Positions 18,675-35,895 of a stretch of DNA of 35,980 nucleotides are shown piece by piece. Below the pieces are notes generated by a model. The model made no database searches. It was not told the DNA's origin and saw nothing but the letters and a program-made list of their open reading frames with translations. This stretch comes from a virus. The first letter of the stretch is position 1; the number at the start of each line of letters is the position of its first letter. Location of the stretch: positions 1 to 35,980 of the IMG/VR virus record IMGVR_UViG_3300022747_000027; one strand, written 5' to 3'. The translations under genes and the position numbers were made by a program.

Positions 18675-18826
18675 TAATCGTTCTCCTCATCTTTGATAGG
18701 TTCTTCCTTGATAGGCTTCTCTTTAGGTTTGTTACGTCCAAAGATACGATCCCAACCATCGTCGTAAGCCTTCTGATCCTGCTGCTTACGTGGTGCATCT
18801 CCTTTACCGGCTTCTCTGTTACTCAT
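18674..18826 (-). CDS. Small conserved phage protein (50 aa)
   Basis: ATG 18826 has AAAGGAA upstream and lies within the final codons of the endonuclease VII-like gene. The 50-aa product contains NREAGKGDAPRKQQDQKAYD then DGWDRIFG, followed by a Lys/Glu/Pro tail. The pattern GKGD-PR-(basic)-YDD-WDRIFG is a widely shared motif in tiny phage proteins of unknown function. Coupled start/stop overlaps on both sides support translation. Confidence 0.7.
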   Translation of the reverse strand: MSNREAGKGDAPRKQQDQKAYDDGWDRIFGRNKPKEKPIKEEPIKDEEND

Positions 18827-19307
18827 GATGTTCCTTTAAATATTGAATTGCTTTATTGAGTGTTTCAATATCATCCTTTGCTTTACCGATCAAAGTATTA
18901 CAGTTAGTACAAAGCAATCCTCTTACTTTTCCTGTGCTATGACAATGATCTACACACAAAGCAGTTTCTGCTCCTTTAGCGCGTCCTTGCTCAACAACAC
19001 TTTCATGTCTGCCACAGCTTGCACAACAATAATTCTGTTTTTCACGTAATTCGTTGTACTGTTCATAAGTAATACCGTATCTTTTTAGCCTTTGTGATTT
19101 AGCCTTTTCAGGGTTTTTTTGATACCAGTTTTTTGAACCTTTACGATGAACTTCACGCTTTTTAGGATTTTCTAAATGCTTTTTTCGGCGACAGACCATA
19201 CAAGTTGAATCTCTGTACTCTTTTACAATTTCTCCTTTTAAGGTGTGTCGAGTAATGTTGAACTTTTCATCTGGTAGTTGTTGTTTACAAACTTTACATT
19301 CTTTCAT
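18819..19307 (-). CDS. HNH endonuclease, recombination endonuclease VII-like
   Basis: A 162-aa nuclease. The N-terminal zinc ribbon has C-x2-C (MKECKVCKQQ) and a second pair (STCMVCRRKK). The linker RYGITYEQYNELREKQ leads into CCASCGRHE, then the HNH core LCVDHCHSTGKVRGLLCTNC and NTLIGKAKDD. This is the endonuclease VII fold common in freestanding phage homing or resolving nucleases. It is wedged between primase-helicase and a run of tiny genes and has its own extended -10 promoter, which suggests a mobile insertion. A second, related copy lies between the terminase genes at about 26.7-27.0 kb. Confidence 0.88.
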   Translation of the reverse strand: MKECKVCKQQLPDEKFNITRHTLKGEIVKEYRDSTCMVCRRKKHLENPKKREVHRKGSKNWYQKNPEKAKSQRLKRYGITYEQYNELREKQNYCCASCGRHESVVEQGRAKGAETALCVDHCHSTGKVRGLLCTNCNTLIGKAKDDIETLNKAIQYLKEHHE

Positions 19308-19383: not shown

Positions 19384-20985
19384 TCACAAAGTTTCTTCAA
19401 AAACTTCTACCAATTTGTTTACTTTCTTATCAAAATACAAGCTACCCGCTGGTCCAGTCTCGCCTGTAAACCGAGCTTTCAATAAACGAAGTTCAGTAGT
19501 GTTACGGACTCTTTCATCATCATTCTGCTGATCCCTTTGAAGTCCAATCACAGCATCAGATAACTGGCTGATACCTTGAGTTCCACGCAAAGCGGACAAA
19601 GTAATCTCAGCGCCGTTTTCAAGTCCTTTCCCTTCCATCCTTCGGGTATGCGAAACACCAAATAAGCCTACACCTGTTTCTTCGACAAAGGTTCGCAACT
19701 TAGTCAAAAGCATATCAAGACCTTTTCGTTCATCCGTATCCATTCCTGAAAGGATCATCTGATAGTGGTCAAGAATAAGCCATGAACAATTTTGAGCCTT
19801 AACCATAAACTTCAAACGGTTTAGCACGTTATCAATGTCCAAGCTACCAAAATGATTAAACAACACACATCGACCTGTTCCCATTGTTGCATCATAGGCT
19901 GCTTTTAGCTCAGCTTCTGAATAAACTGTTTTAGGCAAATGCAAAGGCTTTCCTGCTTCAATGGACATGATCCCAAGAGCTGTTCTCTGTGGGGATTCCT
20001 CCAAAAAGGCCATACCTACGTTATCATCTGTTGTCTTAATCAAATGGTGAATAAGCTGACGCAAAAACGTAGACTTACCTTGTCCAGTACCAGCAGCAAT
20101 GGTAATTAACTCACGCTTACGAAGACCGGCCAGCATATCATCCAGCTTTTTGTACGGCCACGAAGCATCTGGCATCTGCTTAGGTTTTCGTAATTCTTCC
20201 CAAAGCTCATTACCATTAATGATGCCATCCGGCTTATATTGTTCAGCTCTCCACCACTCGTTAACGAACTCCTTTGTAGCCCCTGCGATCAGATAGTCAC
20301 AAGCATCTTTAAAGCCTGTCTTGTGCTTAACGATCTTAGCTTTCTGTCCGAACAGTTCAGCCACTTCTTTAGAGGCTTTGATCCCCGGCTCGTCATTGTC
20401 AAAGCAGATAACGATGTTCTCAAAGCTATTGAGCCACTCGTACTGAGCCTTACAATCCTTCAGGGCTGCTTGTGCTCCGTTACGGATACTTACACTAGGC
20501 CATTGGCTTCCGGTGAGCTGATATCCCGCCAAGGCGTCAAGTTCTCCCTCATAGACGGTGACATACTTACCACCGGCGTGAAAGAGATGCTGGCCGAACA
20601 GAGAGGCTTCTTTAAAGCTTCCGAGGATGGTAAAACTCTTGTCAACAACTGTACGTACTTTAGCAGCAACTCGATTTCCTCCTGCGTCAGCATAAGGGTA
20701 ATAGTGTTTGCCTTCATGTTGTGTAACTCCAAATTTCTCACAAGTTTGCTGGGTAATCCCACGTTCAGGGATGCTCTTTACAGTGCCTTTGATTTCCATT
20801 CGCTTAGGCGCTACGCTATCACGTAACACCGACCTTTCTTCAATAGTATTTTCCTGCTCCGTTGTGCCACAGTTAAAGCAGTATGTATGCCCATCGTCGT
20901 AGAGACTGTTAGCGTCAGAACTACCACAATGCTCACACGGGATGTGCTTCAAAAACTTGGATGGTTGTCGTTCCATGACTTTCAT
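19384..20985 (-). CDS. Primase-helicase, T7 gp4-like
   Basis: A 533-aa bifunctional replication protein. The zinc-binding primase domain has Cys17, Cys20, Cys36 and Cys39, the same positions as T7 gp4. The Toprim core includes VYEGELDALAG (Glu146 region) and CFDNDEPG (Asp196, Asp198). The RecA-like helicase has Walker A AAGTGQGKST (residues 297-306) and Walker B WLILDHYQ (Asp406). Later motifs include SHTRR and the LRGTQGISQLSDAVIGLQRD region. It unwinds DNA as a hexamer and lays primers for the family A polymerase. ATG 20985 has AAGAGG upstream. Confidence 0.95.
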   Translation of the reverse strand: MKVMERQPSKFLKHIPCEHCGSSDANSLYDDGHTYCFNCGTTEQENTIEERSVLRDSVAPKRMEIKGTVKSIPERGITQQTCEKFGVTQHEGKHYYPYADAGGNRVAAKVRTVVDKSFTILGSFKEASLFGQHLFHAGGKYVTVYEGELDALAGYQLTGSQWPSVSIRNGAQAALKDCKAQYEWLNSFENIVICFDNDEPGIKASKEVAELFGQKAKIVKHKTGFKDACDYLIAGATKEFVNEWWRAEQYKPDGIINGNELWEELRKPKQMPDASWPYKKLDDMLAGLRKRELITIAAGTGQGKSTFLRQLIHHLIKTTDDNVGMAFLEESPQRTALGIMSIEAGKPLHLPKTVYSEAELKAAYDATMGTGRCVLFNHFGSLDIDNVLNRLKFMVKAQNCSWLILDHYQMILSGMDTDERKGLDMLLTKLRTFVEETGVGLFGVSHTRRMEGKGLENGAEITLSALRGTQGISQLSDAVIGLQRDQQNDDERVRNTTELRLLKARFTGETGPAGSLYFDKKVNKLVEVFEETL

Positions 20986-20996
20986 GCTTTACCTCT

Positions 20997-21269
20997 TTAT
21001 GTGGTTAAGCCTCTTGCTCGGATGGCGTTAGCGCAGCCAGCGGCTACAGCACCATGTCCGTCATCAATCACATCGCACACCTTCGCACACGCCTCGCGCT
21101 CTGACGCTACCGCTGCTGCGGCGACAAGGGCGGCGAATTCAGACAACTCTTTTTGGCACGAATAACCACACCAAAAAATGAAGTCAGGCTGATATTTCCG
21201 TGATTGTTCATCTACGTTAAAACCAGCCTCCCGCGTCCATTTGATGATGCTTTCTCTGTCGATAGTCAT
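20997..21269 (-). CDS. GC-rich hypothetical phage protein (90 aa)
   Basis: A 90-aa protein with AAGGAG before its ATG. It has the style of small proteins very common in Burkholderiales phages and prophages: an N-terminal MTIDRESIIKWTREAGFNVD, then FAALVAAAAVASEREACAKV and a C-terminal CANAIRARGL. The function is unknown. Codons are strikingly GC-rich (GCC, GCG, CGC) relative to the replication genes on its left, marking the start of an acquired block. It overlaps the repeat-protein gene by four bases. Confidence 0.7.
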   Translation of the reverse strand: MTIDRESIIKWTREAGFNVDEQSRKYQPDFIFWCGYSCQKELSEFAALVAAAAVASEREACAKVCDVIDDGHGAVAAGCANAIRARGLTT

Positions 21270-22144
21270 GTGTTCTTCTCCTTCAATCTCTGCTCGATGG
21301 CTTGAGCAAACTCGTTGAAGCCGCCGCCCTCTTGTGTGTCATCAAAAGCAATGTCGATGTCTTGCTGGGTCAATCCAACCCATTGCCGCTGTGCTGCGGG
21401 CGGGGTGTCGATAACGCCAGAACCATCGCAAACAAAGCACTCTTGATCTGTCCCAATGTCAGGGTAACGTACCATTCGTCCTGATCCATTGCAGTGACCA
21501 CACGCTACCGGCTCATCGGCTGGCTTCCGCTCAAGGGAAGCTATTAAACCAAGAGCGGCTCTTAATCGGTCTACCTCGTTGCTCAATTTCAGTCGATCAT
21601 CGTGATAGACAAGAATCTCGTTGTGCAATCGACGTAATTCGGTGGCGGCGGCGCTACAAGTCAGATTGTCCAATGAATAACGAATATCGCCGGACACCCA
21701 AGCATTACCGTACACCCAAACATTACTGTACACCCGAGCATTACCGTACACCCGAGCATCGCCGTACACCTGAGCATTACCGTACACCCGAGCATCGCCG
21801 TACACCAGAGCATTACCGTACACCCGAGCATTACCGGACCCCAGAGCATTACCGTACACCCAAGCATCGCCGAACACCTGAGCATTACCGTACACCAGAG
21901 CATTACCGTACACCCGAGCATTACCGTACACCCAAGCATTACCGGACACCCGAGCATTACCGGACACCAGAGCATTACCGTACACCCAAGCATCGCCGCC
22001 CTGATCCAGATTTTTTTCACACTCAACATAGCCGCCAAGATCACCGGCAGCTACCAATAAACCAATAGCAGTCAACGCCCTGATTCGATACAGCGTTTTG
22101 CCTTCAAATTGTTTTGTGTCTGTTTTTACAAGTTCGTATTTCAT
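21266..22144 (-). CDS. Hexapeptide-repeat beta-helix protein with paired CxxCxGxG zinc motifs
   Basis: A 292-aa protein with three parts. Residues 1-50 (ending GDLGGYVECEKNLDQGG) are the cap seen in YdcK-like proteins. Residues 51-152 are 17 consecutive hexapeptides of form [ND]-A-x-V-[YSF]-G, expected to coil as a left-handed beta-helix. The third part is a coiled coil (ATELRRLHNEIL, about 168-195), a DnaJ-like pair CGHCNGSG and CFVCDGSG likely to bind zinc, and a tail GLTQQDIDIAF ending AIEQRLKEKNT that is common in Burkholderiales phage proteins. Function unknown; scaffold, adhesin or chaperone-like roles are possible. GGAGG precedes the start. It looks like a fusion of modules. Confidence 0.85.
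   Translation of the reverse strand: MKYELVKTDTKQFEGKTLYRIRALTAIGLLVAAGDLGGYVECEKNLDQGGDAWVYGNALVSGNARVSGNAWVYGNARVYGNALVYGNAQVFGDAWVYGNALGSGNARVYGNALVYGDARVYGNAQVYGDARVYGNARVYSNVWVYGNAWVSGDIRYSLDNLTCSAAATELRRLHNEILVYHDDRLKLSNEVDRLRAALGLIASLERKPADEPVACGHCNGSGRMVRYPDIGTDQECFVCDGSGVIDTPPAAQRQWVGLTQQDIDIAFDDTQEGGGFNEFAQAIEQRLKEKNT
21689..21994 (-). repeat. 17-copy tandem 18-bp repeat (in-frame)
   Basis: Seventeen 18-bp units encode the hexapeptide repeats. The unit on the coding strand is AAT-GCT-nnG-GTG-TAC-GGT, where the nnG codon is CGG, TGG, CTG or CAG (Arg, Trp, Leu, Gln). AAT alternates with GAT, and TAC with TCC or TTC. Because the unit length is a multiple of three, two other frames stay open through the array. 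Unit loss or gain by slippage or recombination would keep the frame. Confidence 0.95.
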
Positions 22145-22191
22145 TTGCTTTCCTCCAGCGCCTGACGCATTGCGGTTATTTGTTCAGTCAT
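22141..22191 (-). CDS. 16-codon mini-ORF, probable gene remnant
   Basis: ATG 22189-22191 overlaps the upstream TGA (ATGA), has AGGAG seven bases upstream, and encodes MTEQITAMRQALEESK before a TGA that overlaps the repeat-protein ATG. The sequence resembles the first residues of longer proteins often found in Burkholderiales phages (MTEQ-ALKQALEAL type). It is therefore probably a truncated remnant that now couples translation between its neighbours, but a functional micropeptide cannot be ruled out. Confidence 0.45.
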   Translation of the reverse strand: MTEQITAMRQALEESK

Positions 22192-23301: not shown

Positions 23302-23330
23302 TATTTACTCCTTGTACGTAATTTTACGTA

Positions 23331-23358
23331 TTGCTTTTTTTAAAACTTATGGTACAAT
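23331..23358 (+). promoter_or_regulatory. Probable promoter for the rightward HNH gene
   Basis: On the plus strand TTGCTT (23331-23336), a 16-bp spacer and TACAAT (23353-23358) lie just upstream of the ATG at 23384. The hexamers are less perfect than those of other promoters here. The gene it serves runs against the surrounding operon, so it needs its own promoter. Confidence 0.55.
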
Positions 23359-23383
23359 TATATACCAACTTTGGAATTATACC

Positions 23384-23839
23384 ATGAACAAACGAGAAAG
23401 AACCCGCCTGTATCGCACATATCACCAGCTCTATACTCGACACTACATCGAAGAGGGCTATACGTGTATCTATTGCGGCGCTCTTGGCAACACCTTAGAC
23501 CATTCTCCGCCCTTGTCTTGGCTTGAACCGTTCGGTATAGAGGCCCTTAGACGCGCCAAAATACCTTTAACGACTGTTCCATGCTGTAGCGAATGCAATG
23601 GCCTCCTAGGTGATCGCAAACTGCTCACAGTCACGGATCGTCTCGAATACCTTGAAAAGAAATATCATTCATTGTTTGAAAAGCTGGTTAGATGGTCAGA
23701 CGAAGAGCTCGAAGAGATGGGAGAATCATTTCAGCGATCAATCCGTGCTCAACGTTACCGCGAAGATGAGCTAATCCGCAAAATTAGAGCCATTGAACAA
23801 CGCATTGTTAAGCCTTGGACTCTTCCTGATGTGGACTAG
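23384..23839 (+). CDS. HNH endonuclease (opposite strand to its operon)
   Basis: A 151-aa protein starting MNKRERTRLYRTYHQLYTRH. Its zinc and HNH elements are CIYCGALGNTLDHSPP (C-x2-C, then the D-H pair) and VPCCSECNGLLGDRKLLT (second Cys pair plus the N-x-L-x-G-D-R end), followed by a long charged helix. It probably cuts DNA as a freestanding homing endonuclease or phage restriction-type nuclease. It is the only rightward gene inside the leftward early arm, has its own promoter, and is somewhat GC-richer than its neighbours, all consistent with insertion as a selfish element. An exclusion or host-targeting role remains possible. Confidence 0.82.
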   Translation: MNKRERTRLYRTYHQLYTRHYIEEGYTCIYCGALGNTLDHSPPLSWLEPFGIEALRRAKIPLTTVPCCSECNGLLGDRKLLTVTDRLEYLEKKYHSLFEKLVRWSDEELEEMGESFQRSIRAQRYREDELIRKIRAIEQRIVKPWTLPDVD

Positions 23840-26626: not shown

Positions 26627-26657
26627 AACGGTGCGGGGGTCTAAACACCGTTTCCTT
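26627..26657 (+). terminator. Hairpin between small terminase and HNH gene (possible weak terminator)
   Basis: AACGGTG (26627-26633) pairs with CACCGTT (26646-26652), with a 12-base G-rich loop, followed by TCCTTTTC. The T-tract is short, so termination would be partial. It may have arrived with the adjacent HNH gene, and might lower nuclease expression. Confidence 0.4.
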
Positions 26658-26672
26658 TTCAAGAGGATCACA

Positions 26673-27041
26673 ATGAAGAAATGTAACAAATGTGGTGAAT
26701 TTAAACCGTTCACTGAATTTAACAAACACAAGTCAACTAAAGACGGCTACGGAACGTACTGCCGTCCTTGCTATAATTATCAGACATTGGCTGGGAAGCA
26801 TCGTAAGCGATACGGACTAACACCAGAACAAATGGCTGAAATGAAAAAAACAGGCTGTGAACTTTGTGGAACTATGTCGAATCTGCACATAGATCACAAT
26901 CACGAAACAAATGAGATACGAGGAGTTCTCTGCACAAACTGCAACAGAGGCCTTGGACATTTCAAAGACTCTCCGGAACTTTTAAAGAAAGCGGCTGAGT
27001 ATCTGGAAAAGAAAGGAAACTATAGCAAATGGCAGAACTGA
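26673..27041 (+). CDS. HNH endonuclease (endonuclease VII-like) between terminase genes
   Basis: The start is taken at ATG 26673 (AGAGGATCACA before it), giving 122 aa. The zinc ribbon is MKKCNKCGEFKPFTEFNKHK (C-x2-C) with YCRPCYN; the linker is KRYGLTPEQMAEMKKTGCEL, then CGTM; the HNH core is LHIDHNHETNEIRGVLCTNC and NRGLGHFKDS. It is the same family as the nuclease at 18.8-19.3 kb. Its 3' end overlaps the large terminase start by 13 bases. Homing nucleases often insert here, but HNH proteins also take part in packaging in some phages, so either role is possible. Confidence 0.88.
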   Translation: MKKCNKCGEFKPFTEFNKHKSTKDGYGTYCRPCYNYQTLAGKHRKRYGLTPEQMAEMKKTGCELCGTMSNLHIDHNHETNEIRGVLCTNCNRGLGHFKDSPELLKKAAEYLEKKGNYSKWQN

Positions 27042-34785: not shown

Positions 34786-35895
34786 ATGACTACGATCATT
34801 ACCAAGAATAGTTCTACAGCTTCTGCTGTACCTTCGGCTGGTTCGCTTGTACAAGGTGAACTGGCTATCAACGTCACAGATAAGAAAGTATATACCAAGG
34901 ACTCCGGTGGTTCTGTTCAGAAGATTGTTGGTTCTTTAGGTAATCAAGAATTCAATGCTGTAACGATCACTGGTGGAACTATCACTGGTATGTCTACCCC
35001 TACTAACTCTTCGGACGTTGCTCCTAAGAGTTATGTGGATGGTCTGATTAGTACAGGCGCTTCTAACGCTGCTGCTGCGGCTGCTAGCGCCTCTGCTGCT
35101 GCATCTAGTGCTTCTGCTGCATCTACTTCAGCTTCCAATGCTTCTACCTCGGCTTCTAGTGCATCTACATCAGCTTCTGCTGCATCCAGTGCTCAAGCAG
35201 CTGCTGAAGCTGCTCGTGATGCTACACTGACTGCCTATGATAACTTTGATGATCGTTACTTAGGCACTAAGACAAGTGATCCCACAGTAGATAATGATGG
35301 TAATGCTCTGGTAGCAGGTACTCTGTACTACAACAGTGTATCTCAGATTATGAAGTTGTACACAGGTTCTGCTTGGGTTGCTGCTTATGTCTCTGGTGCT
35401 GATTACCTTGCTAAGGCTAATAACCTTTCTGATCTTACTAGTTCCTCCGCTGCTCGTACCAACTTAGGGTTAGCTATTGGCACTAACGTACAAGCTTACA
35501 GTGCTAACCTAACTACTTGGGCTGGTAAGACTGTTCCTACAGATACTGTTGTAGGTACTACGGATACACAGACTTTAACCAATAAGACTCTGACTGGCTA
35601 TACAGAGACTGTTACAGCTCTGGCTACTTCAGGTTCTGTTGCTCTGAACCCTGCTAACGGTACTATCAACACTTTAGCTGCTGCTGGTACAGTTACCTTC
35701 ACTGATTCTCTCAGTGCAGGTCAAAGCTTAGTCGTGATGCTTACTAATGGCAGCTCTTATACAATCAACTATCCCACTATGACATGGGTTGGGCCTACAG
35801 GGAATACTGCTCCTACTCTGAACTCAGCTAACGTGTTGGTGTTCTGGAAAGTTGGAACTACTCTGTATGGTGCTCATGTCGGAAAGTATGCTTAA
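34786..35895 (+). CDS. Tail fibre-like structural protein
   Basis: A 369-aa protein starting MTTIITKNSSTASAVPSAGS, then LVQGELAINVTDKKVYTKDS: this N-terminal pattern (S-VP-LV-GELAIN--DKK-Y-KD) is typical of phage tail fibre or collar proteins, seen at fibre N-termini. Residues about 90-148 are an Ala/Ser coiled-coil shaft. The second half has beta-rich repeats such as TLTNKTLTGYT and a C-terminal ALNPANGTINTLAAAGTVTF module. It begins directly after the previous stop (TAAATG) and is followed at 35901 by another fibre gene. Confidence 0.78.
   Translation: MTTIITKNSSTASAVPSAGSLVQGELAINVTDKKVYTKDSGGSVQKIVGSLGNQEFNAVTITGGTITGMSTPTNSSDVAPKSYVDGLISTGASNAAAAAASASAAASSASAASTSASNASTSASSASTSASAASSAQAAAEAARDATLTAYDNFDDRYLGTKTSDPTVDNDGNALVAGTLYYNSVSQIMKLYTGSAWVAAYVSGADYLAKANNLSDLTSSSAARTNLGLAIGTNVQAYSANLTTWAGKTVPTDTVVGTTDTQTLTNKTLTGYTETVTALATSGSVALNPANGTINTLAAAGTVTFTDSLSAGQSLVVMLTNGSSYTINYPTMTWVGPTGNTAPTLNSANVLVFWKVGTTLYGAHVGKYA

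Follow-up and report, generated by a model that had tools for sequence, protein, structure and literature searches.

Mixed residues on uniform synonymous backbones in the 18-bp hexapeptide arrays of a phage gene family related to the YdcK solenoid

The window, i.e. the whole 35,980-base virus record analysed in this work, has a podovirus-like gene content (DNA polymerase, primase/helicase, endonuclease VII, portal and tail fibre). On its minus strand, an open reading frame at 21266..22144 encodes a 292-aa protein which, according to its translation and to Pfam and PHROG profiles, consists of an N-terminal cap, a 17-unit hexapeptide solenoid and a C-terminal region. An RBS-like GGAGGA, read by eye in the sequence, lies six bases upstream of its ATG (22151..22156, minus strand). 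The cap (residues 1-50; 21995..22144, minus strand) is conserved family-wide in an alignment of 21 caps and is modelled with a pLDDT of about 90. It is followed by 17 tandem 18-bp units at 21689..21994 (minus strand; delimited by TRF and unit parsing), whose consensus is AAT GCT CGG GTG TAC GGT. The C-terminal region (residues 153-292; 21266..21688, minus strand) comprises predicted helices, a zinc-knuckle-like stretch and a tail found in other phage proteins; the region is probably a mobile tail common to different phage proteins, and it has a homologue (53 %) at locus L080, where no array of at least 8 units was parsed. The zinc-knuckle-like stretch (CxxCxGSG...CxxCxGSG, residues 213-247, about 21404-21508, minus strand) gave weak, sub-cut-off Pfam matches to DnaJ_CXXCXGXG and Anti-TRAP. 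Pieces matching the last 40 to 80 residues of the protein occur in six other loci of primase relatives.

The array gene lies in a replication-side cluster. The next gene (90 aa; 20997..21269, minus strand; open reading frame and sequence), whose start overlaps the stop of the array gene as ATGA, is the one small gene between the array gene and the primase/helicase gene (19384-20985, minus strand; phrog_239, E 2.9e-179). A 131-aa open frame crosses the array on the opposite strand (21673-22068, plus strand); it is probably an artefact, because a frame that is stop-free in one 18-bp unit stays open throughout, and the orf129 annotated within the array gene of phage Sfi19 probably has the same cause. 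Elsewhere in the window, an HNH-endonuclease-like orphan (23312-23839, plus strand; motif seen by eye, without Pfam match) lies on the strand opposite to the early genes and has homologues in 3 other loci of primase relatives. The phage further carries two different endonuclease VII-like genes (18819-19307, minus strand; 26631-27041, plus strand), and its tail-fibre-like gene (34786-35895) contains short 12- to 21-bp GCT-rich repeats at 35067-35186 (plus strand).

The array was reported by TRF as 16.9 copies at 21690-21993 with a score of 433, every other window array scoring at most 91. A sequence-only reading made beforehand had described 17 in-frame 18-bp units at 21689-21994, and the unit parse returned exactly 17, on the minus strand. 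The motif it gave, [ND]A.V[YSF]G, fits 14 of the 17 units exactly, NALGSG, NARVYS and NVWVYG deviating from it. The codons it listed for the third residue (hereafter x) were all recovered (CGG 6, TGG 5, CTG 4, CAG 2), with G as third base in 17/17. It had located the variation mainly at x: this codon is indeed the most variable, with 11 of the 27 non-consensus bases of the 17 units (codon 5, 5; codon 6, 5; codon 1, 4; codons 2 and 4, 1 each), but there is variation also at positions 1 (N/D) and 5 (Y/S/F), residue diversity at unit positions 1-6 being 0.38, 0.12, 0.76, 0.12, 0.47 and 0.12. At the base level, the variable sites of the window array are 1, 7, 8 and 14, plus site 18, whose base goes with that of site 1 in the following unit. 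In codons 1 to 5 the wobble base never changes (17/17 units); the Gly wobble alone varies, and it is perfectly tied to the following codon (GGC before GAT, GGT before AAT). Just one close relative covers the whole locus, L002, and its 6,876 aligned bases, those of the array among them, are 100 % identical to the window. Among the 10 arrays polymorphic at both sites (L002 included), the Gly wobble linkage does not hold generally, L116 showing the opposite phase. The hexapeptide motif of left-handed beta-helices (LbH) has been given as [LIV]-[GAED]-X2-[STAV]-X (PMC3046976); the window units have its aliphatic residue i (V in 16/17) and its small residue i+4 (A in 16/17, V in 1/17), while at i+1 they carry Y (12), S (4) or F (1) and no member of [GAED].

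The protein matches the YdcK beta-solenoid repeat PF18836 (E 6.6e-22; 75.9 bits vs a cut-off of 30; 9 stretches) and the phage families phrog_7964 (E 3.7e-59, residues 2-156) and phrog_5070 (E 4.8e-59, residues 2-155). Its score against the NCBIfam YdcK equivalog NF040481 is 63.3 bits vs a cut-off of 350, and PADLOC gave no match. By these profile matches, it is a relative of the YdcK fold and not YdcK itself. YdcK is the sole solved relative at E < 1e-5 (a single-sequence search gives E 1.5e-15, a 70-row profile E 1.6e-28), LpxA-like left-handed beta-helices following weakly behind. A model of cap plus array, with pLDDT < 50 from residue 79 on, was superposed on YdcK by VIA-align with Z 15.5 and rmsd 2.3 A over 148 residues, and the same model reached Z 9.4 and less with LbH enzymes. 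AlphaFold model 1 has a mean pLDDT of 59 and model 2 is confident only in the cap (pLDDT about 90) and the first units; a Foldseek search of model 1 against the PDB returned nothing at E < 0.001, its best match being YdcK. The beta-helix proposed from the letters was thus supported as a YdcK-type solenoid by Pfam and by the YdcK profile match, and the structural alignment of a low-confidence model agrees with it. DSSP assigns to model 1 one short strand per hexapeptide over A-x-V-[YSF], with G-[ND] as turn; x and position 5 would therefore alternate with A and V and, by LbH geometry, face outward. The further suggestion that x lines one face of the helix did not survive: lag-3 identity at x is 0.339 vs 0.335 in shuffled arrays and x composition is alike at unit index mod 3, save for Trp in the first unit, so x shows no three-unit periodicity and does not line one special face.

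Relatives were found by tblastn in 70 of 50,697 phage records, and pattern scans located 79 viral-contig loci with peptides, 80 viral loci by the cap alone and 80 loci in bacterial genomes. The cap-only search located loci without using the array; the peptide-found and cap-found sets have some contigs in common. After removal of arrays of fewer than 8 units, arrays with N and duplicates, the sets comprised 75/79 (peptides), 65/80 (cap, viral), 60/80 (bacterial genomes) and 5/80 (primase relatives) arrays. An earlier set of 78 arrays (1,710 units), from which L001, L082, L084, L002, the duplicates L033, L057 and L062 and arrays of fewer than 10 units had been left out, was also used. For each of the 18 base sites, diversity among the units of an array was compared with diversity between arrays. 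The window protein is 58-62 % identical over residues 2-160 to the homologues of phages SFi18, Sfi19 and CHPC919. In some genomes the family is multi-copy, with 8 places in phage LfeInf (H27) and 12 in a Jeotgalibacillus plasmid (H88), and several copies occur in single bacterial genomes (L195-L228, Avibacterium; L214-L226, Bartonella raoultii). An E. coli plasmid-borne relative has irregular repeats, and coverage of the upstream query stayed below 80 % in all E. coli records. Among phages, arrays are irregular in Bp8p and in the Xanthomonas CP1 group.

Across the 75 arrays, variation is unevenly spread over the unit. At sites 1, 7, 8 and 14, within-array diversity is 0.46-0.47 and the between-array share 0.08-0.17, whereas the wobble sites 3, 6, 12, 15 and 18 have a within-array diversity of 0.04-0.08 and a between-array share of 0.83-0.92; the remaining sites are almost fixed, with mild variation at 9, 16 and 17. 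A second base is present in at least 2 units at sites 1/7/8/14 in 73/74/71/71 of the 75 arrays, and at wobble sites 3/6/12/15/18 in 7/7/5/5/8. The 65 cap-found arrays give the same pattern with more noise (diversity 0.42-0.54 at variable vs 0.07-0.18 at wobble sites; shares 0.14-0.25 vs 0.60-0.86; segregation in 54/62/56/60 of 65 vs 7/14/9/12/14 of 65). In the 60 bacterial-genome arrays, homogenisation is much weaker.

The uniformity of the wobble bases does not come from codon bias, since codon use in the flanking ORFs predicts an Ala/Val/Gly synonymous diversity of 0.691 and 0.030 is observed; perfectly uniform synonymous cases number 199 of 223 vs 0.01 expected. The homogenised backbone postulated from the window array is thus supported in the viral relatives as well. 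Meanwhile, residue diversity at x is below 0.2 in none of the 75, 65 and 60 arrays (lowest value 0.40). The 75 arrays carry 35 distinct wobble backbones, and 33 of these include an array which keeps N/D and at least 2 residues at positions 3 and 5; this holds for 68 of the 75 arrays (N and D both kept), and Q, R and W are all found at x in 56. The x wobble is mostly G in 103/108 arrays with an inner Trp vs 8/14 without (p 2.5e-4); the NNG pattern would be simply explained by the single codon of Trp, to whose third base homogenisation would lock the wobble; L008, L025, L151, L160 and L162 are exceptions despite Trp.

The means by which arrays change were sought in close relatives. Variable sites 5-7 nt apart are strongly linked, and the linkage decays within about one unit, which argues for short tracts copied between units. 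Sfi19 and CHPC919 differ at 14/324 array bases, in four clusters, with 0/1,644 differences upstream and 5/1,506 downstream; one cluster, of five changes, matches the unit four places off over 20 nt, and an isolated change matches a unit eight places off over 19 nt, whereas for the other two clusters the other phage offers no exact donor. Between SFi18 and Sfi19, 10/324 array bases differ vs 8 of about 2,770 aligned flanking bases; with the larger of the flank counts, p is 1.9e-5. In three Edwardsiella phages that are nearly identical, the parser, which takes in edge units, counted 10, 9 and 11 units. Pointing the other way, Bacillus phages Bp8p-C and Bp8p-T share one and the same irregular array, and near-identical 32-unit copies in Avibacterium differ by a single base. 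Over 20 close pairs, which were hand-picked, non-independent and mostly taken from draft or metagenome assemblies, we counted 247 substitutions at the 4 variable sites, 91 at 6 wobble sites and 39 at 8 others, together with 167 unit gaps. The idea that slippage changes array length without frameshift is consequently upheld in part: unit number does differ in frame between close relatives, but the best pairs look more like short conversion tracts.

Deposited arrays call for caution. Vibrio phage 1.034.X is a technical replicate of 1.034.O (PMC6029569), yet 15 mismatches and 15 gap bases separate their arrays, while the 2,764 flanking bases contain no mismatch; unit order and number from short-read assemblies are therefore untrustworthy, probably including those of the window array itself. 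Outside the array, Vibrio phages 1.139.A and 1.139.B show no difference save for a 48-base end offset, but within it they differ by 201 bases; a 201-bp indel is listed between these sub-lineages of one plaque, and reads were 100-150 nt long (PMC6029569). These Vibrio arrays had first looked decisive as a natural experiment, i.e. change within a plaque, and were weakened by the 1.034 replicate. That variation in order and unit number is mostly an artefact of short-read assembly is hence a serious possibility, which we nonetheless rate below even. Assembly error cannot create the per-site pattern, and per-site composition should be little affected by it. The SFi18/Sfi19 difference also stands against it, as their accession series presumably predates short reads. 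One Avibacterium genome holds near-identical 32-unit copies, differing by one base, beside copies of 3 and 6 units. Moreover, a PCR study describes alleles of 18 and 22 hexapeptides in different populations for a homologue, CLIBASIA_05650 of 'Ca. Liberibacter asiaticus', annotated as an interrupted gp229 (PMC3296602, in the portion available). In the Vibrio phage records L081-L085, stretches of coding array are labelled CRISPR spacers, and the paper behind these records tallies 32 viruses with putative CRISPR features (PMC6029569, accessible text). A CRISPR array, with constant repeats, unrelated spacers and non-coding sequence, was rejected here, the labelled spacers sitting in an 18-bp coding array.

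Several explanations of the per-site contrast were then weighed. Outward residues of solenoids are generally tolerant, and the outward positions might merely be unconstrained on an array kept homogeneous by slippage. Neutral positions would, however, resemble the wobble sites, i.e. be uniform within and different between arrays, and the opposite is observed; this contrast leads us to reject neutral slippage as highly improbable. A whole-unit simulation of selection left the wobble bases too mixed, so a nucleotide-level toy simulation was built: run neutrally, it failed, with a between-array share of 0.81-0.90 at the variable sites vs 0.07-0.16 observed in the 78 arrays. Selection for a mixture combined with 20-40-nt tracts fitted the diversity, the between-array share and part of the linkage decay, the simulated linkage at 6-7 nt reaching at most 0.10 bits vs about 0.15-0.22 observed. 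About as good a fit to diversity and between-array share came from a hot spot of 30-100-fold, by which sites 1, 7, 8 and 14 would mutate faster, through a diversity-generating retroelement or otherwise, with purifying selection limiting the outcomes. In the 78 arrays, sites 1, 8 and 14 have A among their common states, as such targeting would have it, but the A at site 2 is 99 % fixed. An RVT_1 reverse transcriptase was found neither in the window record (0/1) nor in the relative records (0/32, some being fragments), the contexts of the four sites share no motif by eye and differ between arrays, and without selection the hot spot gives a linkage of only 0.00-0.06 bits at 6-7 nt. In these simulations, the linkage decay favours selection with conversion tracts, and we regard targeted mutation as unlikely.

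The mixture could also answer a structural need, identical units being prone to aggregate or to lose register; any outward mixture would then serve and its order would carry no information. Such a need would account for the same alphabet in unrelated phages and for the fact that all 12 combinations of N/D, Q/R/W and Y/S are common in random-looking order. It further predicts that identical neighbours or stacked units be avoided, and neither periodicity nor neighbour pattern was seen in residue order (units, z -1.0 at lag 1 and 0.9 at lag 3; x, z -0.8 and 0.4), which leaves it doubtful in our eyes, though still a serious rival. Hardly more credible to us, though still ahead of it, is a modular recognition code, in which each hexapeptide would display an outward combination from a set of about twelve (N/D x Q/R/W x Y/S), reshuffled on a homogenised backbone and the string would specify the host molecule bound by an early protein, as a beta-helix counterpart of TAL effector or HNWD repeats in phage-host conflict. 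Lastly, LbH relatives are mostly acyltransferases and some relative records are so annotated, whence the protein might be an acyltransferase or part of another LbH enzyme with incidental variation. We give this very little credence: LbH acyltransferases use a catalytic His and none occurs in residues 1-152 (cap plus array), while YdcK itself has, to our knowledge, no known activity.

Genomic context bears on the role of the protein. Named neighbours are mostly regulators or genes of recombination, replication or RNA polymerase in the S. thermophilus phages, CP1, Boilgate, phiRM10, Aer_P220 and LfeInf; the neighbours in KF-1, downstream of the terminase, are all small and unnamed, and a gene close by in Acidovorax AP1 carries the annotation baseplate wedge protein. 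Among the 80 loci of primase relatives, many of them short, 5 have an array of at least 8 units, one being the same virus as the window, and, at E up to 1e-4, that virus alone showed the window cap. Because array and cap are so rare there, the array gene looks accessory, and this, together with the early/replication context, speaks for an intracellular role and against a virion adhesin.

Taken together, we lean, with little more than even confidence, towards a reshufflable outer binding surface. The gene would make an intracellular, probably early-expressed accessory phage protein, in which a conserved cap is followed by a YdcK-type left-handed beta-helix with unit residues 2 and 4 (A, V) inward and fixed and residues 1, 3 and 5 outside. 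Recombination among the 18-bp units, by short conversion tracts and whole-unit gain or loss, would homogenise the DNA of each array, so that each phage lineage has its own synonymous backbone. Selection, we infer, would keep the mixture of outward residues (N/D; Q/R/W, sometimes L/K/E/V; Y/S/F/C), the likeliest reason being that the outer surface serves as a reshufflable binding surface for a changing partner in the host cell. The sequence-only reading had spoken of diversifying change; residue variation does exceed the neutral expectation, but it is located at positions 1, 3 and 5, and a maintained mixture from a small shared alphabet fits better than open-ended diversification. Several observations count against the binding surface: very different phages use one alphabet, an odd outcome for an open-ended arms race, residue order holds no pointer to a target, members in bacterial genomes are much less homogenised, and AP1 has its baseplate neighbour.

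A widespread phage gene family carries a strong and easily tested sign of selection, in that one small alphabet is kept on 35 backbones among 75 arrays. Should the surface prove to be a reshufflable binder, phages could re-aim an intracellular protein by simple means. Were the cause a structural need or a mutation hot spot, that too would be new. In practice, short-read phage genomes are unreliable in such arrays, and databases label such arrays as CRISPRs.

Among known proteins, those of phrog_7964 and phrog_5070 (gp229/orf229 of S. thermophilus phages SFi18/Sfi19) have the same cap and repeat architecture; the window protein differs by its own C-terminal region, and the DNA-level pattern was not found in the papers on them. 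The closest solved fold, YdcK of Salmonella (PDB 2F9C, 2PIG), has irregular repeats, unlike the window array. CLIBASIA_05650 is likewise a phage-associated protein of six-residue (18-bp) repeats, whose repeat number serves as a marker, neither variable positions nor synonymous backbones being analysed in the available part of the report (PMC3296602). NeuO of prophage CUS-3 is also a prophage-encoded left-handed beta-helix with a length-changing tandem repeat, but it is an enzyme and its heptanucleotide repeats lie in an N-terminal extension and bring about phase variation (PMC3046976, accessible text). In a search mostly without subscription papers, no paper was found on a fixed-alphabet pattern in phage hexapeptide proteins. 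In TAL effector repeats, too, the tandem units are homogenised, their contact residues vary and their number changes, but the fold binds DNA and its targets are known. PRDM9 zinc-finger arrays resemble the phage arrays in the same features and differ in the same way (PMC5351255, available portion). The HNWD genes of Podospora, with concerted repeats, four surface codons under diversifying selection and unit reshuffling, work alike, but these are fungal WD40 propellers which exchange units between genes and act in allorecognition, without homology to the phage proteins (PMC1805685, available portion). By analogy only, the phage arrays share with HNWD, PRDM9 and TALE their homogenised units and a within-array variation limited to few nonsynonymous sites; this evolutionary mode is known from those three systems, and its phage case seems undescribed.
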